NCBI RefSeq assembly: GCF_003932855.1
Contig: NZ_RQYZ01000010.1
Location: 19,776 to 83,775, forward strand
Origin: Tessaracoccus sp. OH4464_COT-324
GTDB lineage: Bacteria; Actinomycetota; Actinomycetes; Propionibacteriales; Propionibacteriaceae
Direction of reading: 5' to 3'
DNA length: 64,000 nt
Position numbers and translations under genes: made by a program. Below, piece by piece: positions 17,603-49,256 of the stretch (position 1 is its first letter; each line of letters starts with the position of its first letter). Under the pieces are notes generated by a model, which saw only the letters and a list, made by a program, of their open reading frames with translations, had not been told where the DNA came from and ran no database searches.

Positions 17603-20600
17603 ATGAAGAAAGCTTTTGCAGCACTGGCTGCGACGACACTCGCTCTCACGGGAACTCTGTTCTCGCCCGCCCATGCGGACGTTACCGACGCCCCGCCCCC
17701 GCATGCGGTGCTGCGACGAGGCAGCCAGCCGAGCGATTCCGGCAAGCCACAGAAGGCGCTCGTGATGCTCAAATCGCAGCCCGAGGGCAGAGGCGATGAG
17801 GCGGCAGGCTTGGCGGCCGTCGAACGCGTAACCCGTCGTTGGAGCCATGTGGAGGGCTTCAAGGTGCGGCGAAAGTTCGGCTCGCTTGTGCACGGATTCT
17901 CCGTTGAGTTGCCTCGCCACCAGATCCCAAACCTGCTAGGCGACCCTGACATCGAGTCGGTGCGGCCATTGAAAACGTACTATCCGACGATGGCCTCCGC
18001 CGGCGACCTGACGAAGAGCACGCAGGCCCGAAAGAACCTAGGGGTTGACGGCCGCGGCCTCGTCATCTCCGTTATCGATACCGGGATCGACCCCACGCAC
18101 CAGGACATGCGCCTAGATGACGATGTCGAGGGGCGTTTGAGGCCAACTGGTAAAGGCACCACTGAGAAGATTCCCTATGGCTGGAACTTCGCCGACGATA
18201 ACGACAACTTCGTGGACACAACCAGTTCGATGCACGGCATGCACGTCGCCGGGATCGCTGCAGCCAACGGCGGCAAGGACGCGGATGCGCTCAGTGGCCG
18301 GATCAATGGCGTCGCGCCCAACGCCCAGCTGCTCAGCATGAAGGTTTTCTCCAACGGCCAAGATGGGGGTGCCAGCGAGGACGACATTATCGCTGCCATC
18401 GAGAAGTCGGTCGAACTCGGTGCCGACGTGATCAATATGTCGCTCGGCATAACCAACGGCACCGAGCAATCCAGCGTCGGCGAGGGGCGCGCGATCGCGA
18501 ATGCCCAAGCTGCAGGCGTGCAGGTGATCGTCGCAGCCGGAAATGAGGGCATCAACGGGTCCTTGACCGGCGAAACCGACGACGCGACCGGCCTGCTCGA
18601 CGACGGCACCGTCGGCTCCCCCGCAACAGCACGGGGTGCCCTGAGCGTGGCGAGCGTCAACAACACGCAGTCTTTGGCGCACAAGGCCGTGTTCACCGCG
18701 GGCGCCGAGAAGCTGGAGCTGGGTTACCAGCTGCAAACCGGCGCCCGCGATGATCAAGAGTACGACATCGTTGCCGCCGGCTTTGGCAGGTTCCCCAGCG
18801 ACTATGCCTCCGATGACCCGGAGCCTCACGAAAACGAGTTTCCCAACGGGGTTGAAGGTAAGTTCGTGCTCATTGAGCGCGGAAAGAATACCTTCGCCAA
18901 AATGTTCGGCAACGCCATGACGGCGGGCGCAGCAGGTGTGATCATCTACAACTCGGTAGAGGGTGGAGACCGATATGAGAGCATGTCCGGGGTGGATGAT
19001 GTCGCCTTGCCGGGAGCATTCATGTGGCGAAGCCACGGCCTGAAAGTCAAGGAGATGATCGCTGCTCACGGTGGCAGCATCAAGGTGGAACTCACCAGGC
19101 AGACGGTGCCCTATCCTCTGGGAGACAAGGCCCTCACGCCCTCCGCATTCACCTCCTGGGGAACCGGCCCAGCCCTCGATTTCAAGCCCCAGCTCTCGGG
19201 GATCGGTGGTTCGGTCTACTCGACCCTGAACGGCAACGAGTACGGGGAGGAATCCGGCACGTCCATGGCAGCGCCCCACGTCGCTGGCGCCTTCGCGCTG
19301 GGACGCGAGGCCTACGCTAAGCGCTTCCCCAGCCTGGGCAAGTCGGAAGCCAACGAGCGCCTGCGGATCGCGCTGGCGAATACCGCCCGCATCCTGGAAA
19401 ACCCAGACAGGGTGCCCTACGCGCCCCGCCAGATCGGCGCCGGGCTGATCCAGACCGAGGACGCACTGCGCACGAACGTCTTCGCCACCGTCGAGGGTTC
19501 GCCCACCGCCGCGTTGCGCGAGGTCCGGGGCCCACGGACGTTCACCGTCAGGCTCTCCAACCACGGATCGACGGAGCACACGTTCAGCGCGGGCGGCACC
19601 TGCGTGCTGGCCGAGTCGCAGACGATCAACGGCCCCAACCAGATGAGTTGCAACCCGGCGGAAAGCCTATCCGCCAGCGCCGCCAAGGTTCGGGTTCCCG
19701 CCGGGGGCAGCGCCACCGTCGACTTCACCCTGACGCCGCAGGACGGAAAGGACCACTGGATCCAGGGTTGGGCCACGCTGGCCTCCGACGACGAGACCGC
19801 ACAGCCGTCGCTTTCCGTGCCCTACCTGGGTTTCGTCGGAAACTGGAATGCCGAGCGCATCATTGACGACCCGGAGAACCCCTATTTCGCTCCTCTCTTC
19901 GGCGCAGACACCCCGAGCCGCACCAAGCTCGTCCGACCAGGCATCGGCGGCCCGGAAGAAGCCTTCTGGATGTCCTTCGCCGAGAACGAATCCATCTACC
20001 CCATGGTGATGCTGATGCGTTCAGCTAGCGAGGTCGAGGCCGAGGTGCTGAAGGGCGACAAGACGTGGGTCAAGCTGGGAAGCGACCGGGACGTGCTCCG
20101 CCACCGGTTTGTGGAGCTGGATCCGGACACCGACAATTCGCATCTCCTCTCCACGCTAGGCTGGGATGGCGGGATCTACGATCCTGCCAAGAACGCCTTT
20201 GCTAAAACGCCGGATGGTACGGATTACGCGGTGAGAATCCGCGCACGGTTGTCGTCTGACTTCGACTGGCAGGTGACGGAACTGCCCTTCAAGGTCGACA
20301 ACACCGCCCCGGAGCTGAGCCTCAACATGACACCCAACCCCGACGGGTCACGCACCTTCATGGTGTATGCCAAGGACGCGCTCTCCGGCTTGATCCCCAG
20401 CTCTGGGCAGGCAAGCTTGGTCTCGCGTCCCAAATTGTCGCTCCCGGTGGAGAACCAGCCCGACGGCAGCTTCAAGGTCACGGTGCCCCCGGACGCCGTC
20501 AAGGATAACGACTTCCTGCGCTTGACGGTCCAGGATGAGGCGGGCAACGTCGCGGAGAAGATCGAGTATCTGGGCTCCGCGCCAGTCAAGCTGGTCAACG

Positions 20601-22543
20601 AGCACCTGTTCAATAAATGGGTTGGCTCGGATACCGAGCAACAGGTCGCTCCCCGTATTGAGGACGGCGAGATCGTCATGGCGCTCCACGTTCTGGATTC
20701 GGTGAAACGGGTCACCGTGAACGGCCACGAAGCCCGTATTGAGGGCTCAGGCGCCGAAGTCAAGCTTCCGCTGAAGCAGGCGAAGTCTCCCGAGGACGTC
20801 AACCGGTTCGAGGTAGTTGCCTTCGACGGCAGCGGTCAGCAGATCTATAAAATCGACCCGGAAAATCTCTGGCTGGGCTACGACATCACGCCACCCGAGC
20901 TGAAGATCATCAAGATGAACCTCAGCGACAAAGGCGAGGCGATTCTTGATGAGAACGGCGAGATCGAGATCGAGGCTATTGTCTCCGACGACGTCTCGCC
21001 CGTCAGCGACATCGTGGTTTACCAGGACACCCCCGGTAATCCCATACCCGTGGATGGGAACGGCCGGTTCAAGACGAGGCTGACCTCCAGCGACCTGGTT
21101 CCTGCGGTCTTCCTGAATGCGAACGATCACGCCGCACAAGGAGCGCTGGTTAATCAGGCGCTGAAGACTTGGCCTGTCTTTAACGAGGCCCCGGATCTGT
21201 CTCCGAGGATCGCGTTTGACGACCCAAACCTGCACCCGATCGCGCCTGAGGCTGGAGCCGTCTTTTTCGTAGACAGCAGTTTCGAGAACCTTGAGTTGAT
21301 TGACGATGAGGCTACCGGGAATAAAATCGCGGCCCGGCTCACGCTCAAGGGACGAATCTTGGGCGCGTTCCAGGACTTCCGGGTCGAGGACAAGGCCGTG
21401 AAGCTGGACGACAACGGCCGGTTCGAAGTGCCGATCAATCTGGTGAATGGCATCACCAAGGTGGGCATCGAGATCCAGCAGGACGCAAGCAACTGGGCTG
21501 AATCGAGCCTCACCTTCCTCTTCGACAGGAACCTGCCTGACTACTCGTTCGCGACTGATCCCCGGGTGGCCTCTGACGGCGCTATCTATCTGACGTCACC
21601 CAAGGATGTTCGCGTCTCCGGCGAGGTGTCCGACGATGAGTTCGGCTACGCCTTGAAGCTCAATGGTTCAGTGATACGCAACTTCCAGAACCTTAACGAC
21701 CCCGGCGCGGATCGCAACCGGCGCGCCTTTGACGAGAAGATCCTCGGCAAACCCGGCGAGTTCATGCGGATGAGTTTCTACGACGAGTTCCAAAACGGCT
21801 TCGAACGAACCATCCCGTTCGTTTCCGACGGCCAGGCCCCGCGGCTTGAGCACCAAGGGTTGGCGGCGAGTCAGCTGCTGTCCGGAAAGACCACGATCAG
21901 GGTGATCGCGACCGACACAAACCTAGAGCGGCTGCACCTCACCCTGGACGGCAAACCCCTCGCCGGCAAGGTGGTGCAGGCTGACCACCCCGGGGCCACG
22001 TTGACCGTGTACCGCGGCGGCGAGCCGCAGCCCGCACAGGCCAAGGCGTCCGACGCGCGGAGCGAGATCGTTGTGGAGGCGGAAATCGACAGCGCCAAAC
22101 TGGCTTCAGGCACCCATACGCTGGTGCTGCTCGCCGCAGACGCCGCAGGCAACCAGTCCATGGAGAAGCTGCTCTTCCTCGTCAATGCTCCCCCCGTGAT
22201 CGAGGGACCTGAGTTCCTCATCGTGGAGGCGAACGACGACGTGAGCGCCGCAAGCAAGGTGTTGGCCGCGCTGAAGGCCGGCTACGTCGCCCGTGACGCG
22301 GAGGACGGCGTCCTGCCGCTCACGATCTCCTTCGAGCCGTCCACCTTCCAGAAGGGCAGGCAGTATCGGGTGCTGTTGTCCGCCACGGACTCGCTCGGCC
22401 AGCGCGTGCAGCGCGAGGTACGTGTTGAGGTAAGGCCAGCGGGCGACCACAAACCTGGCAGCCCCGGGAAACCAGGCACCCCCGGGAAACCGGTTGGGCC
22501 AGGAAAGCCCGGCAAACCGGGCCTGCCCAAGACCGGGGCCTGA
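17603..22543 (+). CDS. Secreted lactocepin/C5a-peptidase-like subtilase 1 ending in LPKTGA
   Basis: 1646 residues with a GGAGG ribosome site 7 bases before the ATG. Domain order: Sec signal peptide (1-25, cut after AHA); I9-type inhibitor propeptide (about 48-130); S8 catalytic domain with D159 (VIDTGID), H211 (MHGMHVAG), oxyanion N314 (AAGNEG) and S554 (SGTSMAAP). A PA domain is inserted at about 375-505 (GKFVLIERGK, AGVIIYN). Next come an Fn3-like/DUF1034 domain (about 630-760, ending VPYLGFVGNWN), several beta-rich repeats, one copy of a terminal domain (about 1530-1612), a KPG-rich linker, and LPKTGA as the last six residues. No membrane helix or basic tail follows. It probably degrades host or co-resident proteins at the cell surface or outside the cell. 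First of three tandem paralogues. Confidence 0.92.
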   Translation: MKKAFAALAATTLALTGTLFSPAHADVTDAPPPHAVLRRGSQPSDSGKPQKALVMLKSQPEGRGDEAAGLAAVERVTRRWSHVEGFKVRRKFGSLVHGFSVELPRHQIPNLLGDPDIESVRPLKTYYPTMASAGDLTKSTQARKNLGVDGRGLVISVIDTGIDPTHQDMRLDDDVEGRLRPTGKGTTEKIPYGWNFADDNDNFVDTTSSMHGMHVAGIAAANGGKDADALSGRINGVAPNAQLLSMKVFSNGQDGGASEDDIIAAIEKSVELGADVINMSLGITNGTEQSSVGEGRAIANAQAAGVQVIVAAGNEGINGSLTGETDDATGLLDDGTVGSPATARGALSVASVNNTQSLAHKAVFTAGAEKLELGYQLQTGARDDQEYDIVAAGFGRFPSDYASDDPEPHENEFPNGVEGKFVLIERGKNTFAKMFGNAMTAGAAGVIIYNSVEGGDRYESMSGVDDVALPGAFMWRSHGLKVKEMIAAHGGSIKVELTRQTVPYPLGDKALTPSAFTSWGTGPALDFKPQLSGIGGSVYSTLNGNEYGEESGTSMAAPHVAGAFALGREAYAKRFPSLGKSEANERLRIALANTARILENPDRVPYAPRQIGAGLIQTEDALRTNVFATVEGSPTAALREVRGPRTFTVRLSNHGSTEHTFSAGGTCVLAESQTINGPNQMSCNPAESLSASAAKVRVPAGGSATVDFTLTPQDGKDHWIQGWATLASDDETAQPSLSVPYLGFVGNWNAERIIDDPENPYFAPLFGADTPSRTKLVRPGIGGPEEAFWMSFAENESIYPMVMLMRSASEVEAEVLKGDKTWVKLGSDRDVLRHRFVELDPDTDNSHLLSTLGWDGGIYDPAKNAFAKTPDGTDYAVRIRARLSSDFDWQVTELPFKVDNTAPELSLNMTPNPDGSRTFMVYAKDALSGLIPSSGQASLVSRPKLSLPVENQPDGSFKVTVPPDAVKDNDFLRLTVQDEAGNVAEKIEYLGSAPVKLVNEHLFNKWVGSDTEQQVAPRIEDGEIVMALHVLDSVKRVTVNGHEARIEGSGAEVKLPLKQAKSPEDVNRFEVVAFDGSGQQIYKIDPENLWLGYDITPPELKIIKMNLSDKGEAILDENGEIEIEAIVSDDVSPVSDIVVYQDTPGNPIPVDGNGRFKTRLTSSDLVPAVFLNANDHAAQGALVNQALKTWPVFNEAPDLSPRIAFDDPNLHPIAPEAGAVFFVDSSFENLELIDDEATGNKIAARLTLKGRILGAFQDFRVEDKAVKLDDNGRFEVPINLVNGITKVGIEIQQDASNWAESSLTFLFDRNLPDYSFATDPRVASDGAIYLTSPKDVRVSGEVSDDEFGYALKLNGSVIRNFQNLNDPGADRNRRAFDEKILGKPGEFMRMSFYDEFQNGFERTIPFVSDGQAPRLEHQGLAASQLLSGKTTIRVIATDTNLERLHLTLDGKPLAGKVVQADHPGATLTVYRGGEPQPAQAKASDARSEIVVEAEIDSAKLASGTHTLVLLAADAAGNQSMEKLLFLVNAPPVIEGPEFLIVEANDDVSAASKVLAALKAGYVARDAEDGVLPLTISFEPSTFQKGRQYRVLLSATDSLGQRVQREVRVEVRPAGDHKPGSPGKPGTPGKPVGPGKPGKPGLPKTGA

Positions 22544-22554
22544 GACTGGCACCT

Positions 22555-22589
22555 TCTGGGCTGGCAGAACCCGGTTCTGCCAGCCCAGA
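22555..22589 (+). terminator. Terminator of subtilase 1
   Basis: Perfect 15-bp stem TCTGGGCTGGCAGAA (22555-22569) with a 5-nt loop and its complement (22575-22589), 12 bp after the stop. It shows that the reading frame really ends at LPKTGA and has not lost an anchor by a nearby frameshift. Confidence 0.85.
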
Positions 22590-22847
22590 GCCATGTAACG
22601 ATTGGGTAACTCTCATCCTGGTAAAGACGAGCCGCACCCACCCCGGAAGCCAATTGTTTGCCCTTGTCGTCGCACAAAGCACAGCCAAGCCCGCCCCCTA
22701 TCACCGGCAAAGCATAGGGTGACCGCCCAGCAAGCGGGCTGCCCGCAGTCCGGGAAAACCTCCCGAAAGCAAGCGAAGTGGCTTGTTGGCGGATAGTATG
22801 CGGCCGTCCAAGCAAGATTCTGTGGAATCATGAACGAACGGATACAG
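22590..22847 (+). promoter_or_regulatory. Intergenic leader of subtilase 2
   Basis: About 260 bp without a supported gene. A TAGTAT at 22794-22799 resembles a -10 element, but no convincing -35 was found at 17 bp. Nothing else could be assigned. Confidence 0.3.
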
Positions 22848-25800: not shown

Positions 25801-27854
25801 ACCTCAGCGCAGAGCACCTGCTCATCGATACGGATCGCTACAACAAGTGGATTGGAACCATCACCCGAGTCATTGACGCTCCGAGGCGTGTCAATGATCT
25901 CGTGACCGTCGATTTCGTGGCCAGCCCCCAGGTGGCTCGGGTCACTGTCAACGGTGTTGAAGCCCGGCTGGAAGACGGGGAGGGCGAGGCCGAGATCAAG
26001 CTTGAGGTAGACAAGAAGAACACCATCACCGTCATCGCCTACGATTCGAACGGCGCTGAGCTGTACAAGAAGGAACTCTGGCTTGGGTTGGACCTCACTC
26101 CCCCGGTGATCGAGTTCACCGAGATCAAGCTGAACGCAAACGGTGAGGTGGTCCTTGCGGACGACGGAACCGTCGAGTTCAAGGCTAAGGTGACCGACAA
26201 CCTGTCCGGCCCGGATGACCTGCTCGTTCTGGCAGGCAAGGGTCTTGATGGTGCGGATCTGTTCCCGACCATCGGGGCTGACGGGACCTTCTCAGCGCAC
26301 GTTCGCCCGAATCCTTCGGATACCGGACTGGCTCTCGCGGCCGCTGACCACGCCAAGGAGAACACCACCAGCCTCGCCAACATCGGCCGCCTGATCGTAC
26401 CGATCGCCGGCCGGGCCCCCACTTCGGGACCCTCGACGATGCGGATCGTCTTCGATGATCCGGATCTCAACTCTCCGGGCGCCCCGTTTGGCGAGCAGGT
26501 CTACATCGTCGGTCCCCACAACCTCGCCCTCACCATGGTCAATGACCGCGCTGAGGGCGAGGAGGTTGCCGCGAAGCTCGCCCTCAAGGGCCGCTTCACC
26601 GTGAAACCGCACGCCTTCCGCATCAAAGGCAAGGACGTGGCGTTGAACGACAAGGGCGAATTCAGTGTTCCCCTCGACCTGGTCAACGGCATCAACAGCG
26701 TCGGCTACGAGGTGGTTGAGAAGAGCGGCGACGACGCCCACGAGGGCAAGTGGCGTTTCTTCTACGACCGCAACCTGCCGGGTTACACGATGAAGACCGA
26801 CCCTGCCATCGCGTCCGACGGTGCTATCTACTTGAAGGCGCAGCCGGCGGAGGTTGCGGTTTCCGGCGAGGTCTGGGACAACGAGTTCGGTTACCGTCTG
26901 GAGCTCAATGGCTCCACCGTTAAGGACTTCGACAACCTCTGGGATCCCGGCAAGGACGTGAACCGTCGCCCTTACTCCGAGAAGGTCAAGGTTGCCGACA
27001 AGGACAACTTCCTGAGGCTGACCCTGTTCGACCAGCTTGGCAACGGCATCGAGCGTTCGATCCCCTACGTAATCGACGGGGCAGCGCCGACTGTCAAGAT
27101 CAATGGCATCAAGGACAATGATCTAGTCTCCGCCAAGCACACTTTCACCGTCGAAGCTGAGGATGACTCGCTGAAGGAACTGACTGTCTGGATCAACGGC
27201 AATCAGGTCGACAGCAAGCACATCGCTAAGACGGCGGTGCACCCAGCGGCTAAGCTCATGACCTTCCGCAACGGCCAACCCGTCGCTGCGGAGGATCCGC
27301 AAGAAACCTCCGGTGAGATGCGGCCCGCGGCTCTGCCGGGCACCGGTAAGAAGGCTTTGTCCATCACCGTCGATCTGGGCGCACTCGGTCTTGACAGCGG
27401 AAAGCACGAGCTCCGAGTCCAAGCCGACGACTACGCCGGCAACAAGACCCTGAACGCCCTGTCCTTCGAGATCAACCACAAGCCGACGATCTCCGGGCCG
27501 GACTCCCTGGATGTCACCGTCGAGGGAGACCCCGCGCAGCAGTACAGGGGCGTGATCGATGCGATCAACGCCGCGTACCAGGTGAGCGACCCGGAAGACG
27601 ACAAGGCGGGCAAGGCTATCAGCCTGAAGTTCGACGCCACGAAGATCAAACTGGGTCAGAGCTTCAGCCTCACCCTGTGGGCGGTTGATTCCGCAGGGCA
27701 GCGGGTGGAGCGTGAGGTAACCATCCGCGTGACCGTCAAAGTCAAGCCGGGCAAACCAGGCAAGCCAGGCAAACCCGACAAGCCGGGCAAGCCAGGCAAG
27801 CCGGGCAAACCCGGTAAGCCGGGCAGGCCAGGTCTGCCGAAGACCGGCGCCTAA
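22848..27854 (+). CDS. Secreted lactocepin/C5a-peptidase-like subtilase 2 ending in LPKTGA
   Basis: 1668 residues from the ATG at 22848, chosen because a classical signal peptide starts there ([17 protein letters not shown], cut after PAFA at 25). An in-frame ATG at 22830 would add six residues. Layout mirrors the first copy: I9 propeptide, S8 domain with D162, H214, N319 and S546, a PA insertion ([17 protein letters not shown]), an Fn3-like domain ending [11 protein letters not shown], long beta-rich stalk, one terminal domain (nt about 27475-27750), a KPG repeat linker of about nine units and LPKTGA at the very end. The catalytic region closely matches subtilase 1, so the genes arose by tandem duplication. 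A strong terminator follows 12 bp after the stop. Confidence 0.92.
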
Positions 27855-27865: not shown

Positions 27866-27905
27866 GGGTGGGCCCCAGCTACGCAGCTGGGGCCCACCCC
27901 TTTTT
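27866..27905 (+). terminator. Strong Rho-independent terminator of subtilase 2
   Basis: 15-bp perfect stem GGGTGGGCCCCAGCT (27866-27880), loop ACGC, complement at 27885-27899, then CTTTTT. It starts 12 bp after the stop codon. Confidence 0.95.
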
Positions 27906-28018
27906 CTTCGACGACGTCAATCGCTCACTTCCGATGTTCGATCATCCTTTCCCAAGTTTCACGATCTTCATTTCGGCCCTATCCTGTGGTAGTAAGCAAA
28001 CGATGCGAGGGGACTTTA

Positions 28019-31000
28019 ATGAAGACTACGCTGCTAAAGCTTATGGCATTGTCATTGGCGTTATCAGGAAGCGGAATTGCGGCATTCGCCGACGATTCCA
28101 CTTCACCCACCACTCCTGCCGAAGGAGCTGCAGAAATCAAAGCGCCGGCTTACCATCCCGAAGTCACCGGCGCACTCGTCATGCTCAAGGAACAACCCGA
28201 CGGGTTGGGAGATGAGGACGCAGGCCTGGCGGCCGTTGAGCGGGTGGTGGCCCGCTGGCAAAGCCGGGAAGGTTTCCAAGTCAGGCGAAAATTCGGCGCA
28301 TTGGTCAAGGGATTCTCAGCAACGATGCCACCCGCTCTCATGGCCGAACTCCAGTTCGATCCCGACGTGGCGAGCGTCAGGAAACTCCAAACCTTCTACC
28401 CTGCGCTCACGAATGCTGCCCGGCTCTCCGAGGCTAGCCAGGAAACCCGCCAACGTTTGGGCGTAGATGGCCGTGGGCTCGTCGTAGCAGTGATCGACAG
28501 CGGAGTGAACCCACAGCACGAAGACATGCGACTCGACTCGGATGTGACGCCGCGGCTAGCTCGCGACACGAGCATCCCGGGCACCACCGACAAGGTCCCG
28601 TTCGGGTGGAACTATTCCGACCAGAACGCGTTCTTCACCGAGACGAAGAACGCCTCGCACGGCATGCACGTCGCAGGCATCGTCGCAGCGAACGGAGCAG
28701 AAGGCCCCGCCTCCCCCATCGGCGACCGAGTAGACGGTATCGCGCCTAACGCACAGATTTTGGCTATGAAGGTCTTCACCAACGACAGCAACAGCCCGAG
28801 TGGCTTGGAGGACGACATCATCGCGGCGATCGAGGACTCCGTGAAACACGGCGCCGACATCATCAACCTGTCGCTTGGTGCACCCAACGGCGTCCAGCAG
28901 GTTTCGGTAGGCGAAGGCCGAGCGGTGGCCAACGCCCAGAAAGCGGGTGTTCAAGTGGTCGCTGCTGCGGGAAACGAGGGCCTCAACGGCTCCCGGACCC
29001 GCGATGAGCAAGACATCACCGGCATGCTCGACGACGGCACGCTCGGCACCCCCGCCATCACGGGCGAGGCCCTGGCCGTCGCTTCGATCAACAACAGCTC
29101 CAGCGACAAGCTCACCCCGTCCTACTTCACGTCCTGGGGCACCGGATCCGCCCTACAGTTCAAGCCTGAGATCGCAGGCATCGGCGGAGGCGTCAAATCC
29201 ACTTACAACAACGGGTACGGCACGGAGTGGGGCACCTCGATGGCTTCCCCCAACGTCGCAGGGGCATTTGCACTTGGCCTACAGGCCTACCAGCAGCGGT
29301 TCCCCGACCTAAGCAAGGCCGAACGCAACAAGCTGCTGCGCATCGCAATGAGCAACACCGCCAAAGCGCCTAGCGTGGCCGGCGTGCTCGCCCCGCCGCG
29401 ACAGGTCGGGGCAGGCCTCGTGCAGACCGAAAGCGCGATCAATACCAAGGTCTTCGCCACCGTGGCCGACTCCCCCAACGTTGCGCTCGGCGAGGTTCGC
29501 GGCAACCGCACTATCGCGGTCAACCTCACCAACAAGGGCACCAAGCCGTATTCGTTCACTCCCGGCGCAACCTGTGTTCTCCAGGAGAACCACGCTCCCA
29601 ATGAGCGCAACTACCCCAAGTGCTCCGCAACGGACACAGTCCGCCACCCCTCCGAGAAGGTGACCGTGGCCCCGGGGAGCAGCACCACCGTCGAGTTCAC
29701 TCTGGAGGTGCCCGACGCCGCCGCGCACTGGGTGCAGGGTTGGGTAACTCTCGCCTCGGACGACCGGGAACAGCCTTCGCTGAGCGTGCCCTATCTAGGC
29801 TTCGCCGGCGACTGGAATGCCGAGCCCATCGTCGACGCTCTGGACGGGCCAGGATTCTTCGACGCCTTCTTCTCTGGAAAGACGCACGACCACACCACCC
29901 GGCTGATGACGAACATCGAGGGCGAGGCGCGCCCCACCGCTTGGTTCTCGCCCAACGGCGACGGCCACGGGGACAGCGTCTACCCACGGCTGATGATGCT
30001 GCGTTCGGCCAGCGACCTTGAGTTCGAGGTACAGCGAGACGGCCAGCGCATCATCGGGCTGGGGCAGGGCAGGGATTGGAGTCGGCCGCTGATGCGCAGC
30101 GTGCTGGCTTCGAAGTCCTCCGCCGCCAACTCTGCCTATGCCCACAGCTGGAACGGCAAGCTGTACAACCCCAAGACCGACCAGTTCGATACCGCGGCGG
30201 AGGGGCGCTACACCTACCAGGTCCGCGCCCGGCTTTCTCCCGACTTCGGCTGGCAGGTCACTGACTTCCCGTTGGGCATCGATCTCACAAGACCCAACGT
30301 GTCGCTGAGTTTCACCCGCAACGACGACGGCTCACGAAAATACACCGTCACCGCGTCTGACGCGCTGTCCGGTGTGCGGGATGTAGTGGCCGAGGATTCC
30401 CTTTCCAAGCAGACCTTCACGGTGGCGTTGGACGGCCCCGACAGCTACTCCTTCACTGTTCCGGCGGATATCGCTCGGACACAGTCCTTCGTCCGCGTCG
30501 GTGTCCGGGATCTGGCGGGCAACCTCGCCAGCGAGACCAGCTCCTACAGCACCAGGACCCTGAGCGTGACCAACCTCGACCGATTCGACCGCTGGGTCGG
30601 GGCCGACTCCGATGCGCGAGCCATCCCCGCCATCGCCGACGATGCCGCGCGCGTCGAGTTCGCGGCCGGCCCCGACGTGGCACGGGTGACGGTCAACGGC
30701 GTAGAGGTGGCTCTCGAAGCGGGGCGCGGCGCGGGCACCGCTCCGCTCTCGGTGGGCAGGAACGACATCGTCGTCGCGGCTCACGCCGCCGACGGAACGC
30801 TGCTGGAGGAGCAGCGAATGTGGCTAGGCTACGACCCTGTTCGACCCACCGTGCAGCTGCGCGCGGGGTTGCTGGACGATAGCGGCAGGCTCACTCCCGA
30901 CGACGACGGCAGGATCACGCTCGCCGGCACCGTCACGGACAACATCACAGCACCGGCCGAGCTGACCCTGCAGATCGCCGGGCAGCCGGTGTCCATTGAG

Positions 31001-33271
31001 GCCGACGGCTCGTTCGAGTTCGCCTTCGATCCGGGCGCCGCCGAATACGTCGGCGTGTTCGTGCAGGAGCATGTGAGTGACCATGCGATCGGCAACCTCG
31101 TGTCGGCTCGGTGGCCGGTGGCCACCCGCCAGCAGTTGACGCACGGCATCCGCATAAACTTCGACGATCCCGCGCTTCAGGCGCAGCGCGCGTTCGGCAA
31201 GGCTTTCAACGACGTAACCTCGCGGTACCGAAACCTAGAGGTGGTGAACGCGGACGCGGTGGGCGACGAAGTGGCGGCCCGCCTACGGGTCACCGGGGCC
31301 TTCTCCAAGCGCCCGGCCGCCTTCCGCGTGGATGGTCAGGCCATCTCGCTGGATGCCTCCAACCGGTTTGAGTTCACTCTCGAACTGGTCAACGGCGCGA
31401 AACGGTTCGGCTTTGAGGTCGAGGACACTCCCGGCAATCTGATCGCCGCAGGAAGCTGGCGGTTCAACTACGACTCCACGCTGCCGGGCTACACCTTCGA
31501 CTCTACCCCTGCGGTGAACTCCGACGGCGGGCTGTACCTCAAGTCGGCGCCCACGCACGTGGACATAACCGGAGAGGTGTGGGACAACGAGTTCGGCTAT
31601 CGAATGCTGATCAACGGCTCCGTGGTGGGCAACTTCACGAACAAGAACGATCCGGGCCTGAACGATGGCCAGCCGATCAACCGTCGCCCATACTCGGAGA
31701 CGGTAAACGTCGCCCAGGGCGACAAGTACATGCGGGTCAGGCTGACCGACCTCATGAACAACGGCATCGAGCGGCGCATCCCTCTAGTGCTCGACGAGGT
31801 GAACCCCGTAATCAGCCACTCCAGTACCCAGCCCGGGCCACTGGTTGACCTGGAGCAGACCTACACCTTCAGAGCTACGGACTCTAACATCGAAAGCCTG
31901 GCTGTCAACATCGACGATCAGTCGGTTCGGGCCGAGGTCGTCCGGGTCAATCCCCGGCGCGATGTGATTGAAGGCGAGTACCGCCACGGCGTCTGGCGCC
32001 AGCTGCCCGTCCCGCCCGCGGGTCAGGCGGTCACTGAGCTGGAGATCGTGGTTCGCCTGGCCGACGTTCCTTCGCTCGCCAGCGGACGCCACGTTATCTC
32101 CGTCCTGGCCACCGATAAAGCCGGCCGGACCGCCAGCTATGACGAGCCCTTCGTGCTCGGAGCGATGCCGACGATCGCTGGCCCGGACACGCTGGTGCTG
32201 GCCAACAACGGCAAGCTCGACGAGCAGGTCCGCAAGGCGTTCACAGCGAAGGACTCGCTGGATCAGCCGCTCGAACTCAAGTTCGACCTGTCCGGGTTGA
32301 AGCCGAACCAGGCGGTGGCGGTCACGTTGAGCGCCACGGACTCCTCGGGGCGCAAGGCCGAGAAGGTGGTACAGATTACCTTGGACACGGCACCCGAGAT
32401 CGGTGGAGGAGCCGAGCTGACCGTCGTGGAGCCGAACCCGACCCGGACGGCAACTCTTGAGGAGCAGGTCCGCGCGGCCTTCCCCGTCACAGATGCGCTC
32501 GACGACGCGGCCGGCAAGCCGGTGCGGCTCGACTTCACCCTGCCCGAGCTGCAGCCCGGGCAGGCTACCGAGGTGACCCTTTCGGCCACCGACTCCCTGG
32601 GCCAGGTGACCACGAAGAAGGTGCAGATCACGTTGAAGGCGCGCCCGCAGATCGTCGGGCCGGACAGACTGCGGATCAAGGGTAGCGCCCCGGCGCTCAA
32701 TCAGATCCGCGCCGTCTACCGGGCCACTGATGCGCTCGGCCAGGTGCTGCAGATAACGTTCGGGCCTGAGCTGGCGCCGGATCAGGAGACCGAGGTGACG
32801 CTGCGCGCTGTGGACGAGGACGGCGTGGTGGCCACCCGGAAGGTTCGAATCCTGCTCGATAGCGCGCCGCTCATTTTCGGCCCGGATGCCGTCGAGCTGG
32901 AGCCCGGGGAGGATTACGCGGCAAAGCTGCGTGCGATCTACCGGGCCTCGGACGTGCTGGATGAGGCCGCGGGCAAGGGGGTGGAACTGCGCTTCACCCT
33001 GCCGACGCTGTTGGTCGGTGACGCCGTGAGCCTGGAGCTGTCCGCCACCGACTCTCTGGGCCAAACGACGCGGCGCGTCGTTTGGGTCAGCCTCAAGGCC
33101 ACGCAACAGCCGGATCCGACGCCGGAACCGAAGCCCGTGCCCAAGCCGACGCCGGAACCGAAGCCCGTGCCCAAACCGGACCCCACGCCGGATCCGGAAC
33201 CGAACCCGGGCAAGACGGTCAAGCCTCAGCCTCCGGAGAAGAAGCCGGGGCTACCCAAGACCGGCCGATGA
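28019..33271 (+). CDS. Secreted lactocepin-like subtilase 3, no PA domain, ending in LPKTGR
   Basis: 1750 residues from the ATG at 28019, which has GAGGGG six bases upstream; 11 extra codons upstream are rejected. Signal peptide 1-24 (cut after AAFA), I9 propeptide, S8 domain with D160 (VIDSGVN), H214 (SHGMHVAG), N319 (AAGNEG) and S407 (WGTSMASP). Unlike its two neighbours it has no PA insertion: only about 20 residues separate VASINN from FTSWGTG. The Fn3-like domain and beta stalk are conserved. The terminal domain (consensus GPD...QVRAAY...DALD...LSATDSLGQ) is present in four copies at nt 32165-33105 instead of one. The linker is P/E/K-rich (PTPEPKPVPK repeats) rather than KPG-rich. The protein ends in LPKTGR with no anchor helix. 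Confidence 0.92.
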   Translation: MKTTLLKLMALSLALSGSGIAAFADDSTSPTTPAEGAAEIKAPAYHPEVTGALVMLKEQPDGLGDEDAGLAAVERVVARWQSREGFQVRRKFGALVKGFSATMPPALMAELQFDPDVASVRKLQTFYPALTNAARLSEASQETRQRLGVDGRGLVVAVIDSGVNPQHEDMRLDSDVTPRLARDTSIPGTTDKVPFGWNYSDQNAFFTETKNASHGMHVAGIVAANGAEGPASPIGDRVDGIAPNAQILAMKVFTNDSNSPSGLEDDIIAAIEDSVKHGADIINLSLGAPNGVQQVSVGEGRAVANAQKAGVQVVAAAGNEGLNGSRTRDEQDITGMLDDGTLGTPAITGEALAVASINNSSSDKLTPSYFTSWGTGSALQFKPEIAGIGGGVKSTYNNGYGTEWGTSMASPNVAGAFALGLQAYQQRFPDLSKAERNKLLRIAMSNTAKAPSVAGVLAPPRQVGAGLVQTESAINTKVFATVADSPNVALGEVRGNRTIAVNLTNKGTKPYSFTPGATCVLQENHAPNERNYPKCSATDTVRHPSEKVTVAPGSSTTVEFTLEVPDAAAHWVQGWVTLASDDREQPSLSVPYLGFAGDWNAEPIVDALDGPGFFDAFFSGKTHDHTTRLMTNIEGEARPTAWFSPNGDGHGDSVYPRLMMLRSASDLEFEVQRDGQRIIGLGQGRDWSRPLMRSVLASKSSAANSAYAHSWNGKLYNPKTDQFDTAAEGRYTYQVRARLSPDFGWQVTDFPLGIDLTRPNVSLSFTRNDDGSRKYTVTASDALSGVRDVVAEDSLSKQTFTVALDGPDSYSFTVPADIARTQSFVRVGVRDLAGNLASETSSYSTRTLSVTNLDRFDRWVGADSDARAIPAIADDAARVEFAAGPDVARVTVNGVEVALEAGRGAGTAPLSVGRNDIVVAAHAADGTLLEEQRMWLGYDPVRPTVQLRAGLLDDSGRLTPDDDGRITLAGTVTDNITAPAELTLQIAGQPVSIEADGSFEFAFDPGAAEYVGVFVQEHVSDHAIGNLVSARWPVATRQQLTHGIRINFDDPALQAQRAFGKAFNDVTSRYRNLEVVNADAVGDEVAARLRVTGAFSKRPAAFRVDGQAISLDASNRFEFTLELVNGAKRFGFEVEDTPGNLIAAGSWRFNYDSTLPGYTFDSTPAVNSDGGLYLKSAPTHVDITGEVWDNEFGYRMLINGSVVGNFTNKNDPGLNDGQPINRRPYSETVNVAQGDKYMRVRLTDLMNNGIERRIPLVLDEVNPVISHSSTQPGPLVDLEQTYTFRATDSNIESLAVNIDDQSVRAEVVRVNPRRDVIEGEYRHGVWRQLPVPPAGQAVTELEIVVRLADVPSLASGRHVISVLATDKAGRTASYDEPFVLGAMPTIAGPDTLVLANNGKLDEQVRKAFTAKDSLDQPLELKFDLSGLKPNQAVAVTLSATDSSGRKAEKVVQITLDTAPEIGGGAELTVVEPNPTRTATLEEQVRAAFPVTDALDDAAGKPVRLDFTLPELQPGQATEVTLSATDSLGQVTTKKVQITLKARPQIVGPDRLRIKGSAPALNQIRAVYRATDALGQVLQITFGPELAPDQETEVTLRAVDEDGVVATRKVRILLDSAPLIFGPDAVELEPGEDYAAKLRAIYRASDVLDEAAGKGVELRFTLPTLLVGDAVSLELSATDSLGQTTRRVVWVSLKATQQPDPTPEPKPVPKPTPEPKPVPKPDPTPDPEPNPGKTVKPQPPEKKPGLPKTGR
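32165..33105 (+). repeat. Four tandem copies of an about 78-residue stalk domain in subtilase 3
   Basis: Copies begin near nt 32165, 32392, 32643 and 32868. Each has an I-x-GP-D/E start, a central QVR/QIR-AxY-xx-DALD segment, and ends in LSATDSLGQ or a close variant plus a KVQITL-like strand. Subtilases 1 and 2 carry a single divergent copy at the same place. Confidence 0.8.
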
Positions 33272-33279
33272 TCCACTGA

Positions 33280-33318
33280 CTGAAGGTGGCGTGCCCCGTT
33301 GGGGCACACCACCTTCAG
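33280..33318. terminator. Terminator of subtilase 3, between convergent genes
   Basis: 18-bp stem with one mismatch: CTGAAGGTGGCGTGCCCC (33280-33297), loop GTT, and its near complement (33301-33318). It lies 9 bp after the subtilase stop and 45 bp before the purD stop, so it may serve both strands. Confidence 0.85.
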
Positions 33319-33362
33319 TCTTGCGTCGACTCGCGGCCAACGGAGCGCGGCTGTCTTTGAGG

Positions 33363-34924: not shown

Positions 34925-37401
<2,477 letters not shown>

Positions 37402-37405
<4 letters not shown>

Positions 37406-38007
37406 TGATCAGCAGCAAGACTGTCGCTCGATGGCTGACGCGTTATGCGCAGCTCGTCGCCGACAACGAGGCTCACCTGACCGAGTTGGACTCACCCATC
37501 GGCGACGCCGACCACGGCGCCAACATGAAACGCGGAATGCAAGCGGCGCTTCCCGCGCTGGAGTCCGAGACGATGGGCGGCCAGTTGAAGGGCGTCGCCA
37601 TGGCGATGCTCAGCAAGGTTGGCGGTACCAGCGGCCCGCTCTACGGCACGTTCTTCCTGAAGGCAGCCACCGCGCTCGGTGACGCCACCGAGGTGGAGCC
37701 GCAACGCTTCGCCTCCGCCCTGCGCTCGGGGCTCGACGGGCTGATCGCCCGCGGGAAGACCGAGCTCGACGACAAAACGATGGTCGATGCGCTGGCACCG
37801 GCGCTGGACGCGCTCGAAGCCGAAACAGACTGGTCTGCCGCCACCCGGGCCGCAGCCAAGGCGGCCGCCGCCGGGCGCGACCACACCATCGGGCTGCTGG
37901 CGCGCAAAGGGAGGGCGTCCTACCTGGGTGAGCGCTCCGTCGGGCACATGGATCCGGGCGCGGCCTCGGCCACGCTGCTTTTCGACGCTCTGATTGAGGA
38001 GGAGTAA
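37402..38007 (+). CDS. dhaL: Dihydroxyacetone kinase, ADP-binding subunit DhaL
   Basis: 201 residues from the ATG at 37402, whose ATGA overlaps the dhaK stop. DhaL holds ADP as a fixed cofactor that is rephosphorylated by DhaM. The metal-binding aspartates appear in SPIGDADHGANMKRG (about 31-45). Other conserved pieces are SKVGGTSGPLYGTFF and the C-terminal GRASYLGERSVGHMDPGA. The next gene, dhaM, begins at the base after the stop. Confidence 0.96.
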
Positions 38008-38721
38008 ATGGGAGTCGGCATCGTTGTAGTCTCGCATTCGCGGGCGCTAGCCGAGGCCGCAGTGGAGTTGGCGGACATCATGGTCCAGGACTCGCGGCCC
38101 AAGGTGGCGATCGCCGCCGGCTTGTCCGACGGCCGATTCGGCACCGACGCCACCGAGATCATGTCCGCCGTGGAGTCTGTCAACGGCCCGGAAGGCGTCG
38201 TACTGTTCGTGGACATGGGTTCAGCCGTGATGAACGCCGAGGCTGCGCTAGAGCTGCTGGGGGTGTCGAGCGAGAAGATCCGCATCCTGGCCGCGCCGTT
38301 CGTCGAGGGCATCACCGCCGGCATGGTTCGGGCAGCGATGGGCGGCTCGGTCGATGCGGTGGCCGCTGCGGCGGAGGGCGTGCTGGATGCGAAACTCGTG
38401 GCGTTGGGCCGCACCTCGCTGGCCAGCAGCGACGCCCCTGCAGAGGATCAGGAGTCGGTCGAGGCGGAGGTGGTGCTGGTCAACGAGGTAGGGTTGCATG
38501 CCCGCCCCGCCACCCGCTTGGCGCAGCTGGCCAGCAAGTTCGACGGCGAGTTGGACGTCTATTTCGAAGACGACGACCCGGCCGACGGGATGTCCGCGAT
38601 GAGCCTGATGGCGCTTGGCGCGCGCAAGGGCAGCCGTCTCAAGCTGGTGGCTTCTGGCACCGAGGCGCAGCAGTTGTTGGATGCCGTGGTGGAGTTCATT
38701 TCTTCCGGAATGGGCGATTAA
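38008..38721 (+). CDS. dhaM: PTS phosphoryl donor subunit DhaM (EIIA-HPr fusion)
   Basis: 237 residues. Residues 1-125 are an EIIA(Man)-type domain with the phosphorylatable H10 (VVVSHSRALAE) and the FVDMGSAVMNAE segment. A short linker leads to an HPr domain (about 152-237) with H164 (VGLHARPATRLAQLA) and the MSAMSLMALGARKG stretch. It passes phosphate from PEP via enzyme I to ADP on DhaL. The E. coli protein also carries an EI-like third domain, absent here, so enzyme I must come from elsewhere. The gene follows dhaL without a gap. Confidence 0.94.
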   Translation: MGVGIVVVSHSRALAEAAVELADIMVQDSRPKVAIAAGLSDGRFGTDATEIMSAVESVNGPEGVVLFVDMGSAVMNAEAALELLGVSSEKIRILAAPFVEGITAGMVRAAMGGSVDAVAAAAEGVLDAKLVALGRTSLASSDAPAEDQESVEAEVVLVNEVGLHARPATRLAQLASKFDGELDVYFEDDDPADGMSAMSLMALGARKGSRLKLVASGTEAQQLLDAVVEFISSGMGD

Positions 38722-44197: not shown

Positions 44198-44212
44198 CCA
44201 GCCCCCTTAAGG

Positions 44213-44860: not shown

Positions 44861-44861
44861 T

Positions 44862-45695: not shown

Positions 45696-45750
45696 AACTA
45701 CCTCCTTTGGCCGAGCATAACCGATTGTCCCCCGCCTGGCGGGAAAAGAC

Positions 45751-45785
45751 GAGTGTGGGGCACGCCAACGGCATGCCCCACACTC
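45751..45785 (-). terminator. Terminator of the fucosidase gene
   Basis: 12-bp perfect stem GAGTGTGGGGCA (45751-45762) with its complement (45774-45785) and an inner GCC/GGC extension. It starts 13 bp after the fucosidase stop at 45798 (minus strand), confirming that the protein ends at LPRTGV. Confidence 0.8.
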
Positions 45786-45797
45786 GCTCGATCGCTA

Positions 45798-48700
45798 TCA
45801 GACTCCGGTACGCGGCAGCTTCGGCTTGGCCGGCTTGCTCGGAGCCGGCTTGCTCGGAGCCGGCTGGCTCGGAGCCGGCTTACTCGGTCCAGGCCGGGGC
45901 GTCGGGTCTGGGCTCGGCGTCGGATCCGGGACAGGGGCCGGGTCTGGGCTCGGCGTCGGATCCGGGACAGGGGCCGGGTCTGGGCTCGGCGTCGGATCCG
46001 GGACAGGAGCCGGATCTGGGCTCGGCGTCGGATCCGGGACAGGGGCCGGGTCTGGGCTCGGCGTCGGATCCGGGACAGGAGCCGGGTCTGGGCTCGGCGT
46101 CGGGTCCGGGACAGGGGTATCGGCAATTACCCGGAGCATCACCGGCTCAGTCGCAATACTCCCCGACGGGTTGGTAGCCACGGCCTTGAACAGCGCCCCA
46201 TTCAACTCCTTCGTGGCCGTGAACTCTAGCTTCAGTCCCTCGCCGACACTCTCCCAAATCGGGTCATCGTCGAGCGGAGCGACGTCGGCCGCACCTTCCG
46301 TATCGGCCTTCGGCAGCGCTCGGAGCCACTCCACACCGGGCGTGGGCAAACCGTCGACCGCCACTTCAAAGGCAGCCTGCTCGCCCTCCTTCACCTCGAT
46401 GGGCTTCGGCTGAGCGGTGAAACTCGGCTCCGAGACCACGACGATGCTCAGGGGATCCGTGGCGGCTTCCCCGGCCTCGTTAACGGCAACCGCTCGCACT
46501 ACCCACTGGTTGTGCTCGGCAGCAACTTCCAGCGTGAACTCCGGCCCCTTGGCCTCCAGATCCACCCAGTTGGCGCCCTCCTGCGTCCAGTCTCCGGTGT
46601 TTCGCTGCCACGTGATCTCGGGAGCCGGTGTGCCCGCGGCCTCAACCGCCAAGCGCAAGGTGGCCCCCAGTTTCACCTGAACAGCAGGCCGATCGCTGGT
46701 GATGGGTTTGATGTCTTCGGCCGGCTCTCCGCTGATCTCCAACTCGCTGATCTCCGGCGCGGAACTCGGCTTCTTCCCGAAAACCTCCACCTCCGCCAGG
46801 GCGAGCTGCTTGGAGGTTCCCGGCAGCACGACCCGCAGGTAGCGACCCTTCTTGCCTGCCATCTGCACCACGCTCGGGTAGCCGGCTACTCCCGGAACTT
46901 GAACGGCCTGCACGTCGGGGTTGACCATCTGCTGCGAGAGCGGAACCTCAGGGAATGGCTTCTCCGAGACCAGGAGGACGAAATCCTTCAGTCGTTGATC
47001 GCAGCTCTCCGCGCCACACCTGTCCAGGTTGGACCGGTTCCAGACGTTGACCTCCGTGAGGTCGTACGACTTGCCGAGATCAACCTCCCACCAGGGATCA
47101 GTGGCATGAGCGGTGTGGCTCACAGACTGGTTATCCCACACCCCGTCGGTGTTTCCGTCGTTTGCCCGGCTCGCAAGGCCACCCCAGCCGGTCGAGATCT
47201 GCCGTGAGGGCTTGTTGAGAGCCAGGTTTGCAGCTGCCTCACGCACAGTGAGCAGAGCAGATTCAGAACGCTGTTCACCGAGCGCGTTTGTTGCCACCAC
47301 GAAGTACCTTGCCTCATTGTCAGACAGCTGGGCCTCGAAGCTGAGCGTGGGGGATGTCTCCCCCTCAAGCTTGCGCTCCTTGCCAGCCGATACTCGATAC
47401 CACTGGTAAGTGGGAGCAGGCCGACCAACCGCCCTAGCCCTGAACTCCACTTCCGCGCCCTCGACGACCGACTGGCTCATCGGCTGCACCACGAATTCCG
47501 GCGCGCTATCCTCTGCGCTCTCGGCCGAGACCTCGACCTTACTCACCCGAACGCCCAGCGGAGTGGCGTAGTAGACGGGCTTAGCCAACTCCAGTCGAAT
47601 GCGCGCCACCTGATTCGGCTCCAGCTTGAATCCTTCGCCAACGGAACCGTCCAGCAGCTCCTGTCCGGTGACCTCCACCGAGTTGTCGCCAAACCAGACC
47701 CGGTACTTCGTTTCCGGAGCGAGCCCACTGGCCGTGAATGTCAGCTGAACGCTGTCGACGGCCTTGTCACTGTCACCGAGAACGTAAGAGTCCACCGCTA
47801 CGGGATAGCGCTTTGCCCCATTCCTGCTCAACAGGTCGCTGCCCTCGATGACCCCCGACCCCTTGACCAGCCGGACGGTCTGTTGCGGGACCATCCGGGG
47901 TGTTCCGTCGAGTTCCACCTTGATCACGTTCATGAAGGAGTCGGGCGCATCACCGTCGAGGGTGACGCTCAATTCTGCACCGGTCTGTGTGAATTCGAGA
48001 GCTTTGCCACCGTCGATGGCGACCGAACGAACCTTGTTGGCCAGTCCGGCCAGGCTCACCTTTCGGCCGCCACTCCAAGTGCTCTTCGGCACGAAGAAGT
48101 ACAGTGCATTGTCGTTGGCGGTGATCCGTCCCCATTCCGGGACGGGGAACCAGGTGGCCTGGGCACCGGAAATCGCCTTGGGGTGCCGCTTCATCCATTC
48201 TCCGATGTTATCCAGGACCCGCTGATCGTACGGGTCGAAGGAACCATCGCCCTTGGGGCCGACATTGTAGGCGAACTGGCCGCCGCCAGAGACAACTGTC
48301 ACCAGGCCATCGATTGCCGAGATCGTCTTGCGCTCCAGGGATTCCTCCGAGCGGTTAGCCTTAGAGGTGTTGCAGTAGCTCCAGCAGGCCGGGAAAATCG
48401 AAAGGATTGACTCCCACGGGCCGATGCGGAAGTCGCGCGGTACCGCGTTGTCGCCGCCCACCTCGAAGTCCCCCTTATCGTTCCACACACGGGAGTTCAC
48501 GACCGTGACATCCGGCTGATGTTGCCTGACCCGGTCAGCCATTCGTGCCGACTGGTCGGCGGTGGGCGCGCCCATGTCGAACCAGAACTCCGCGATTGGC
48601 CCGTAACCGGTCATCAACTCGTCGATCTGCGCCAGGATGTAGGGCATCATCGACTCGGGGATTGGGTTGAGGTTTCGGTAGGGCTCGGCCTCGTGCTTGG

Positions 48701-49256
48701 TCCAGTCGATGATCGAGAAGTAGAACGCCAGTTTGACGTCCACCTTGGCACACTCCTGCTGCAATTGCTTCAAGGGATCCTTGCCGAAGGCAGTCTTCTT
48801 GACGACGTTGTAGTCCGTGGTCTTGGTATCCCACATCGCGAAGCCGTCGTGGTGCTTCGTGGTGATCATGACGTAGTTCATACCTGCGTTTTTGGCGGTG
48901 CGGCACACGTGGCCCGCGTCCCACTTCTCCGCAGTCATCTTCGCCGCTTCCTGAAGATAGACGTCATCGGGGATCTTCATCCAGGCTTTGATCTGCTCGG
49001 GATAGCCGATGCCCTGCGGGGTGCCGTTGTAGCTGCCCGCGAACATCGAGTACACACCCCAGTGCATGAACAGGCCGAACTGCAGTTTCTGCCAGTTCGC
49101 GATGCGCTCGGAGTCGCTGTGCGGGACGACGGCGGGGACTCCCTTCACCTCGTCGAGATCCACCTCACCTGTGTTCAGCACGGCCCTGGCTGGCGTGGCT
49201 ACCATCGCCAACATCAGAGCCACCGAAACGATTAGTCCTAGAAATCGTCTTCTCAT
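45798..49256 (-). CDS. Secreted multidomain GH29 alpha-L-fucosidase ending in LPRTGV
   Basis: 1152 residues from the ATG at 49256. The signal peptide (1-25) begins MRRRFLG, which fits the twin-arginine pattern RRxFL. The GH29 catalytic domain (about 45-430) starts WQKLQFGLFMHWGVYS, has KHHDGFAMWD (134-143), and the nucleophile D227 in EFWFDMG. Then come a beta domain, an Ig-like domain (PAPTYQWYR), an F5/8-type discoidin domain (DPWWEVDLGKSYDLTEVNVWNR), two more Ig-like domains (PAPEITWQRN; PTPGVEWLRA), six PDPTPSPDPAPV repeats, KPAPS repeats and LPRTGV at the end. It should remove fucose from host glycans such as mucins. No membrane anchor follows the LPxTG-like motif, as in the three subtilases. 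Confidence 0.93.
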   Translation of the reverse strand: MRRRFLGLIVSVALMLAMVATPARAVLNTGEVDLDEVKGVPAVVPHSDSERIANWQKLQFGLFMHWGVYSMFAGSYNGTPQGIGYPEQIKAWMKIPDDVYLQEAAKMTAEKWDAGHVCRTAKNAGMNYVMITTKHHDGFAMWDTKTTDYNVVKKTAFGKDPLKQLQQECAKVDVKLAFYFSIIDWTKHEAEPYRNLNPIPESMMPYILAQIDELMTGYGPIAEFWFDMGAPTADQSARMADRVRQHQPDVTVVNSRVWNDKGDFEVGGDNAVPRDFRIGPWESILSIFPACWSYCNTSKANRSEESLERKTISAIDGLVTVVSGGGQFAYNVGPKGDGSFDPYDQRVLDNIGEWMKRHPKAISGAQATWFPVPEWGRITANDNALYFFVPKSTWSGGRKVSLAGLANKVRSVAIDGGKALEFTQTGAELSVTLDGDAPDSFMNVIKVELDGTPRMVPQQTVRLVKGSGVIEGSDLLSRNGAKRYPVAVDSYVLGDSDKAVDSVQLTFTASGLAPETKYRVWFGDNSVEVTGQELLDGSVGEGFKLEPNQVARIRLELAKPVYYATPLGVRVSKVEVSAESAEDSAPEFVVQPMSQSVVEGAEVEFRARAVGRPAPTYQWYRVSAGKERKLEGETSPTLSFEAQLSDNEARYFVVATNALGEQRSESALLTVREAAANLALNKPSRQISTGWGGLASRANDGNTDGVWDNQSVSHTAHATDPWWEVDLGKSYDLTEVNVWNRSNLDRCGAESCDQRLKDFVLLVSEKPFPEVPLSQQMVNPDVQAVQVPGVAGYPSVVQMAGKKGRYLRVVLPGTSKQLALAEVEVFGKKPSSAPEISELEISGEPAEDIKPITSDRPAVQVKLGATLRLAVEAAGTPAPEITWQRNTGDWTQEGANWVDLEAKGPEFTLEVAAEHNQWVVRAVAVNEAGEAATDPLSIVVVSEPSFTAQPKPIEVKEGEQAAFEVAVDGLPTPGVEWLRALPKADTEGAADVAPLDDDPIWESVGEGLKLEFTATKELNGALFKAVATNPSGSIATEPVMLRVIADTPVPDPTPSPDPAPVPDPTPSPDPAPVPDPTPSPDPAPVPDPTPSPDPAPVPDPTPSPDPAPVPDPTPSPDPTPRPGPSKPAPSQPAPSKPAPSKPAKPKLPRTGV
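45905..46120 (-). repeat. 36-bp tandem repeat, six units, in the fucosidase linker
   Basis: Six units of 36 bp, nearly identical in DNA, each encoding PDPTPSPDPAPV. They form a rigid proline-rich spacer. The DNA identity makes copy-number change by slippage likely, in whole 12-residue steps that keep the frame. Confidence 0.9.

Follow-up and report, generated by a model that had tools for sequence, protein, structure and literature searches.

The canonical LPXTG cell-wall sorting signal (TIGR01167, LPXTG_anchor) has an LPxTG pentapeptide near the C-terminus, and passages of PMC13251363 name the hydrophobic segment and the basic tail that follow as standard parts of sortase sorting signals. 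In a 64,000-nucleotide stretch of a Tessaracoccus sp. OH4464_COT-324 contig (the window hereafter), three subtilases and one GH29 alpha-L-fucosidase have the pentapeptide, and the stop codon comes one residue later. These proteins, and others encoded elsewhere in the genome, are like canonical substrates in their C-terminal LPxTG, signal-like N-termini and Pro-rich linker before the motif, but they have neither the hydrophobic segment nor the basic tail, usually carry a single residue after Gly, and have a common [K/R]-P-G upstream of the motif. We found 30 such ends in this genome, and they probably work like a canonical sorting signal.

Parts of PMC4723074 describe the incorporation of exogenous LPETG-amide by SrtA of live S. 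aureus, which rose 20-fold when basic residues were added, and state that SrtA may be inhibited by a carboxylate placed directly on LPXTG. Laboratory incorporation of LPXTG peptides (PMC4723074, in the same parts) and sortagging resemble the proteins described here in having a soluble substrate and a short end after LPXTG, whereas here the route would be a native one for genome-encoded proteins. As for class F sortases, passages of PMC7913060 say that the class F enzyme of Cutibacterium (Propionibacterium) acnes, SrtF, is the only sortase of that species and describe its activity as very similar to that of S. aureus SrtA. The physiological roles of class F sortases were called unknown in a passage of a 2026 paper (PMC13251363). 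Our literature search, covering the top-ranked matches for larger result sets, returned no description of tail-less LPxTG proteins.

Tail-less LPxTG ends and their conservation

The window's own genome (G000; 2.76 Mb in 217 contigs) has 76 sites of LPxTG with x = K, R, N, S, H or Q, while the reversed-pattern control has 31. All 76 sites were read, and a tail-less end was counted where the tag closed a long open reading frame (ORF; at least 200 amino acids before the tag) or a Pro-rich one. This gave 30 ORFs ending in LP[K/R/S/N]TG plus one to four residues, with K at x in 23, R in four, S in two and N in one; a further end cut by a contig edge (LPKTGV, C147:68) was left out of the set. One residue follows Gly in 27 of the ends, three in one and four in two. 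The single last residue is C or R (six each), A or V (five each), S (three), N or D (one each). From composition about 0.09 one-residue ends would be expected in an assumed 2500 proteins, and given this expectation and the 76 sites against 31, chance is excluded as the source of these ends. With any residue at x there were 212 sites (control 161), of which 100 were listed; the 30 that were fetched added no tail-less end of a long ORF to the set.

The tagged ends are not a canonical sorting signal, since two of its features are absent. The LPxTG pentapeptide is near the C-terminus in the tagged ORFs, but a stop follows after one to four residues in all 30, leaving no hydrophobic segment, and there is no positively charged C-terminal tail. 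When readthrough and both frameshifts of the 30 genes were scored for a hidden tail (90 readings, those shorter than 17 residues left unscored), the highest values were 1.61 and 1.59, compared with 1.95 for each of two genuine anchors. One full LPxTG anchor was found in the genome, on an HtaA-domain protein. A second match to TIGR01167 above cut-off (C139:7647-7724, L034) has LPSTA, a hydrophobic stretch and RRRRR, and is a full signal of another motif type.

At least 200 amino acids precede the tag in 25 of the 30 ORFs; the remaining five are either short or truncated at the end of a contig. Judged by a simple hydrophobicity rule rather than by a trained predictor, the N-terminus is signal-like in 24 of the 25 longer ORFs, the exception being C14:24259. 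The net charge of the linkers over the last 50 residues ranges from -1 to +10. Outside the window, 14 of 18 tagged proteins matched a Pfam family and four matched none. The families include glycan-related ones (GH20, GH95, GH35, GH10 and pullulanase), two 5'-nucleotidases, two endonuclease/phosphatase proteins, a leucine-rich-repeat protein and a thioester-domain protein; the remaining matches are VWA/FlgD-Ig-like (at or just under the cut-offs), DUF5979 repeats and DUF4832. In all fetched loci taken together, Pro-rich long LPxTG ORFs have one residue after Gly in 62 cases, two in six, three in nine, four, five and seven once each, and 18 or more in six more. Zero residues never occurred, and the last residue is of 12 different kinds.

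The tag is conserved where the rest of the protein is not. Its clearest record is in the 5'-nucleotidases: 71 of 120 listed homologues are tail-less, 69 of them with exactly one residue after Gly and none with zero, and the tag is kept between homologues of 43-56% identity whose linkers are dissimilar. The T. oleiagri protein (P0258), for instance, has the end LPSTGN. Among the other 49 are PPxTGx variants and several Tessaracoccus proteins whose ends are unrelated; four rows were flagged canonical by the script, and by eye there is no hydrophobic tail in their printed stretch. Among 51 distinct C-termini of these homologues, P is at position -8 in all 51, G at -7 in 44 and R or K at -9 in 45; variation is seen at x and at the last residue. 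The entropies at -6, -5, -3 and -2 follow from how the rows were selected; the [K/R]-P-G was not imposed by that selection.

For the subtilases, a profile at 1e-30 had matches in 21 of the 39 genomes of the genus, strong ones (E = 0) in five besides G000. All five strong homologues are tail-less, ending in LPSTGR (G034), MPRTGN (G016), LPKTGH (G001), LPRTGG (G023) and LPKTGG (G009), and in G016 and G001 the region upstream of the tag differs. The weaker matches in other genomes, among those listed, were other subtilases without the tag. With one subtilase, P0002, tail-less ends occur in 15 of 120 listed homologues; the window's own assembly accounts for at least four of the 15, and others are from Arachnia propionica, uncultured Tessaracoccus and Parenemella sanctibonifatiensis. 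Homologues from Cutibacterium, Trueperella and Actinomyces have mostly full LPxTG/LAxTG-like tails. A related-locus search with P0002 returned no relative. The window fucosidase is the only tail-less protein among its 120 listed homologues, of which the closest named ones are from Schaalia, about 50% identical and with full LAxTG-type tails. Since these have LAxTG anchors and no other listed homologue is tail-less, the comparison suggests that the fucosidase was acquired and its end then refitted, and the fitting of this gene to the tag was probably a separate event. Because full tails are retained in Schaalia fucosidases and Cutibacterium subtilases, it is the tail that was probably lost, with the tag remaining.

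Other genomes were scanned for LPKTG or for the longer pattern P-[G/K/N/S/R/D/E]-[L/F]-P-[K/R]-T-G, in which AGR was the codon taken for Arg. Sites of the longer pattern were counted in 198 genomes of the family, and not all of them are real tags. The most sites were in G000 (23), G009 (19), G005 (15), G002 and G004 (14 each), G034 (12), G023 and G062 (9 each), G017 (8) and G016 (5); all remaining genomes had 0-3 and the controls 0-2. When the LPKTG sites of G002, G004, G005, G034 and G062 were fetched, 33 of 47 were tail-less ends by the script rule. The one site read of the eight in G017 is a real tail-less end. Outside the genus, a tail-less protein resembling the 5'-nucleotidase family occurs in four Cutibacterium-group genomes (G083, G084, G090 and G091), and another genome of that group, G085, has a full tail on another protein.

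The preliminary description of the window had the tag and its anatomy right, and overlooked the common [K/R]-P-G, the genome-wide scale and the usual single residue after Gly. It had proposed a count of tail-less against canonical proteins, which gives 30 tail-less ends and, on the other side, one full LPxTG anchor and an LPSTA-type tail. The first of its hypotheses, that an unusual sortase acts once the proteins have been secreted, agrees with the route considered likely below. Its suggestion of selection for a minimal tag is supported by the diverged 5'-nucleotidases and by the five other genomes with strong subtilase homologues. It had also held that a single degenerate strain, random loss of the motif, or relatives with full anchors would speak against the idea. 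The first is ruled out by the tail-less ends in other genomes of the genus and in listed homologues, and random loss is excluded as well; other genera do carry the same enzymes with full anchors. The anatomy and conservation of the tag are solid.

Sortases of the genome and genus

Three sortase genes were found in G000, one for a class E homologue and two for class F; PF04203 finds two sortases, and the second class F copy was found only by a class F query. The class E homologue, on C113 (L101:3109-3774, minus strand), has TLTTQ where an aligned solved sortase has TLTTC, so the catalytic Cys of TLxTC is replaced by Gln, and it scored 110 bits against NF033747 (cut-off 160). This loss is common. 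Of 35 class E homologues in 34 genomes of the genus, 29 are without the catalytic His or Cys, by different substitutions, and the protein is nevertheless kept; the homologue of G035, with N, E and R at the catalytic positions, is counted among them, and L320, L321 and L364, which are of another sortase class, are not counted. The degenerate homologues are a candidate pseudosortase family on the strength of these substitutions. The six intact ones are in G010, G011, G012, G024, G032 and G060, and G010 has one intact and one degenerate copy. An intact class E homologue is present in none of the 10 genomes with at least five tag-pattern sites and in six of the 29 other genomes of the genus; all these genomes are related, and we attach no statistical weight to the contrast.

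The class F enzyme is the only sortase with intact catalytic residues that we found in G000. His, Cys and Arg are intact in all 39 aligned class F sequences, including both G000 copies and those of tag-rich and Cutibacterium-group genomes. It has the sortase fold by PF04203 (33.6 bits, cut-off 26.6), and an AlphaFold2 model (mean predicted local distance difference test score, pLDDT, 86.5) had sortases as its top Foldseek matches; a low-confidence stretch at residues ~31-66 lies between the N-terminal helix and the domain. A sequence search against the PDB gave one spurious match only. Its only NCBIfam match is to class F, the class of C. acnes SrtF, at a score below the curated cut-off. Class F genes are present in 36 of the 39 genomes of the genus. 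Class C sortases are present in seven genomes (G002, G004, G005, G009, G017, G023 and G034), all of which have tag-pattern sites. The preliminary description had suggested listing the sortases, and the list points to class F, with its intact catalytic residues; the lost catalytic Cys of the class E homologue had escaped it.

The second class F copy (C1:214641-215219, L328) lies about 1.1 kb from, and convergent to, the gene of a tagged DUF5979 repeat protein ending in LPKTGA (C1:213504, L100). In the Cutibacterium-group genome G083, class F matches as two adjacent pieces in different frames (C1:843607-844255).

Possible route to the wall and other explanations

We consider it fairly likely that LPxTG plus one to four residues is a C-terminal sorting tag, at which a class F sortase cuts between Thr and Gly and attaches an already translocated protein to the wall; the enzyme and the wall attachment are inferred. 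In this route the signal peptide would export the tagged protein completely, and the long, often basic Pro-rich linker would hold its C-terminal end inside the wall. The catalytic domain of class F, tethered by a predicted flexible stretch of about 35 residues, would then take the tag from outside the membrane, and after the predicted cut the protein would be attached to the cell wall. Because the tagged proteins are without a membrane tail, the sortase would likely have to catch them after they leave the membrane. That a residue after Gly is always present while its identity is free fits an enzyme that cuts Thr-Gly: the residue would be needed because the Gly of the cut bond must not carry a free carboxylate, and which residue it is would be irrelevant. 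The 12 kinds of last residue fit recognition of LPxTG rather than of the end itself, and recognition of the last residue is thereby ruled out. For the tagged proteins, the helix and basic tail by which other substrates are retained in the membrane for sortase would be dispensable. Further points in favour of the route are the 30 tail-less ends against a single full LPxTG anchor, the two class F copies of G000 with intact catalytic residues where the class E homologue has lost its Cys, the tagged gene about 1.1 kb from one of these copies, and, as precedents, the uptake of LPETG-amide by live S. aureus and the class F enzyme described as the sole sortase of C. acnes. Linker charge could help retention in some of them, though not in all, given its range.

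Should the tail-less proteins be anchored in the wall, native sorting would not depend on retention by a membrane tail, and a group of surface enzymes will have been classed as merely secreted. Class F sortases would gain a testable role and a substrate set, and surface display might gain a very short tag of natural origin. More broadly, we regard as evenly balanced the view that this lineage rebuilt wall sorting on soluble substrates, with the nine-residue C-terminal tag [K/R]-P-G-L-P-x-T-G-x of fully secreted proteins captured by a tethered class F sortase while class E decayed to a pseudoenzyme; this would be nature's equivalent of sortagging in the laboratory.

Several points weigh against the class F route. 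The G000 enzyme reaches only 54.1 bits against NF033748 (NCBIfam), under the curated cut-off of 166, although this was the only family matched at E 0.01. It differs from C. acnes SrtF in this low score and in the tail-less proteins that are its proposed substrates. The distribution of class F, which is nearly genus-wide, does not follow that of the tag, as many genomes with class F have few or no tag-pattern sites, and no class F gene was found in the tagged genome G017 (97% complete, 220 contigs). PF04203 missed the second class F copy, so other sortases could have been missed as well. In G000 one Pro-linked PGLPKTG (C135:23484, L365) lies within its protein, with 519 residues beyond Gly, and could reflect a fusion or a different use of the motif. 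From the literature, a passage of PMC13251363 reports that Actinoplanes with all four class F genes deleted had no phenotype, and parts of PMC4723074 state that incorporation of soluble peptides in S. aureus required high concentrations.

A different reader of the tag is unlikely, in either of two forms. The tag could be a non-covalent wall or receptor-binding signal, with a membrane protein, perhaps a degenerate class E homologue, binding [K/R]PGLPxTGx without cutting and holding the enzymes at the surface. The retention of class E homologues with lost catalytic His or Cys (29 of 35) fits this, and those linkers that are basic could bind the wall. However, G002, G004, G005 and G062 are tagged, yet their matches are of class C alone and a close homologue of class E is absent, and the free last residue together with the lack of zero-residue ends is better explained by a sortase cut. 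No more probable, in our estimate, is that another enzyme, a class C sortase in some genomes or an unrecognised transpeptidase or protease, cuts or transfers at the tag. G017 has tags and class C sortases and no class F match, and all seven genomes with class C have tag-pattern sites, but G000, with the most sites of all, has no class C among its PF04203 matches. Moreover, G002 encodes, next to its class C gene, a protein with a full LPLTG tail (L116), which would be expected of a class C enzyme acting on tailed substrates.

The ends could also be relics of full anchors on proteins that are merely secreted and in which only the linker matters. In other genera, close relatives of these enzymes do have full anchors, and a stop codon easily removes a tail. 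A relic would decay, yet LPxTG and its extended [K/R]-P-G persist in the diverged 5'-nucleotidases with their unlike linkers, and the fucosidase, with its named close homologues listed from Schaalia, has an end of the same kind; we regard a relic as distinctly improbable. That a hydrophobic tail is made through stop-codon readthrough or frameshifting, or that the stops are sequencing errors, is hardly credible, since hairpins stand close behind the window stops, the same ends occur in many independent assemblies, and none of the 90 readings has a comparable tail, by which hidden tails are ruled out.

Proteins of the window

The positions of the four tagged proteins are given in Table 1. As the preliminary description had it, they end in LPKTGA, LPKTGA, LPKTGR and LPRTGV with the stop directly after, which was confirmed in all four ORFs, and N-terminal hydrophobic signal-like segments and Pro-rich linkers are present. 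The hairpins it placed 9-13 bp behind the stops are there at all four, at about 7-13 bp by eye.

Table 1. Tagged proteins, tags and 3' hairpins in the window
Feature	Position	Strand	Remarks
Subtilase 1, 1646 amino acids (Peptidase_S8, PA, Fn3-like)	17603..22543	+	signal-like N-terminus; PGKP-type linker; end LPKTGA
Tail-less tag LPKTGA of subtilase 1	22523..22540	+	then TGA stop
Hairpin 3' of subtilase 1 stop	22556..22588	+	by eye
Subtilase 2, 1674 amino acids	22830..27854	+	signal-like N-terminus; PGKP linker; end LPKTGA
Tail-less tag LPKTGA of subtilase 2	27834..27851	+	then TAA stop
Hairpin 3' of subtilase 2 stop, then T run	27868..27897	+	by eye
Subtilase 3, 1761 amino acids as listed	27986..33271	+	start further in possible; PEPKP linker; end LPKTGR
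Tail-less tag LPKTGR of subtilase 3	33251..33268	+	then TGA stop
Hairpin 3' of subtilase 3 stop	33279..33319	+	by eye
GH29 alpha-L-fucosidase, 1174 amino acids as listed	45798..49322	-	start further in possible; PDPTPSPDPAPV linker; end LPRTGV
Tail-less tag LPRTGV of fucosidase	45801..45818	-	then TGA stop
Hairpin 3' of fucosidase stop	45750..45786	-	by eye

In Pfam, all three subtilases have Peptidase_S8 and Fn3-like domains, and PA was matched in two of them and not in subtilase 3. The fucosidase has Alpha_L_fucos, Ig-like and F5/8 type C domains. In their subtilase part, the three proteins are related to the SGO_0316/SGO_0317 family of LPXTG-anchored serine peptidases (NF040553, SGO_0316 family serine peptidase), but they score only 187-260 bits against a cut-off of 1400 and are without the full anchor. 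Between the subtilases and the fucosidase are dihydroxyacetone kinase genes (35003-38721): an 800-residue ORF whose C-terminal part holds a DhaK domain is followed by DAK2 (DhaL) and a PTS EIIA-man/HPr protein.

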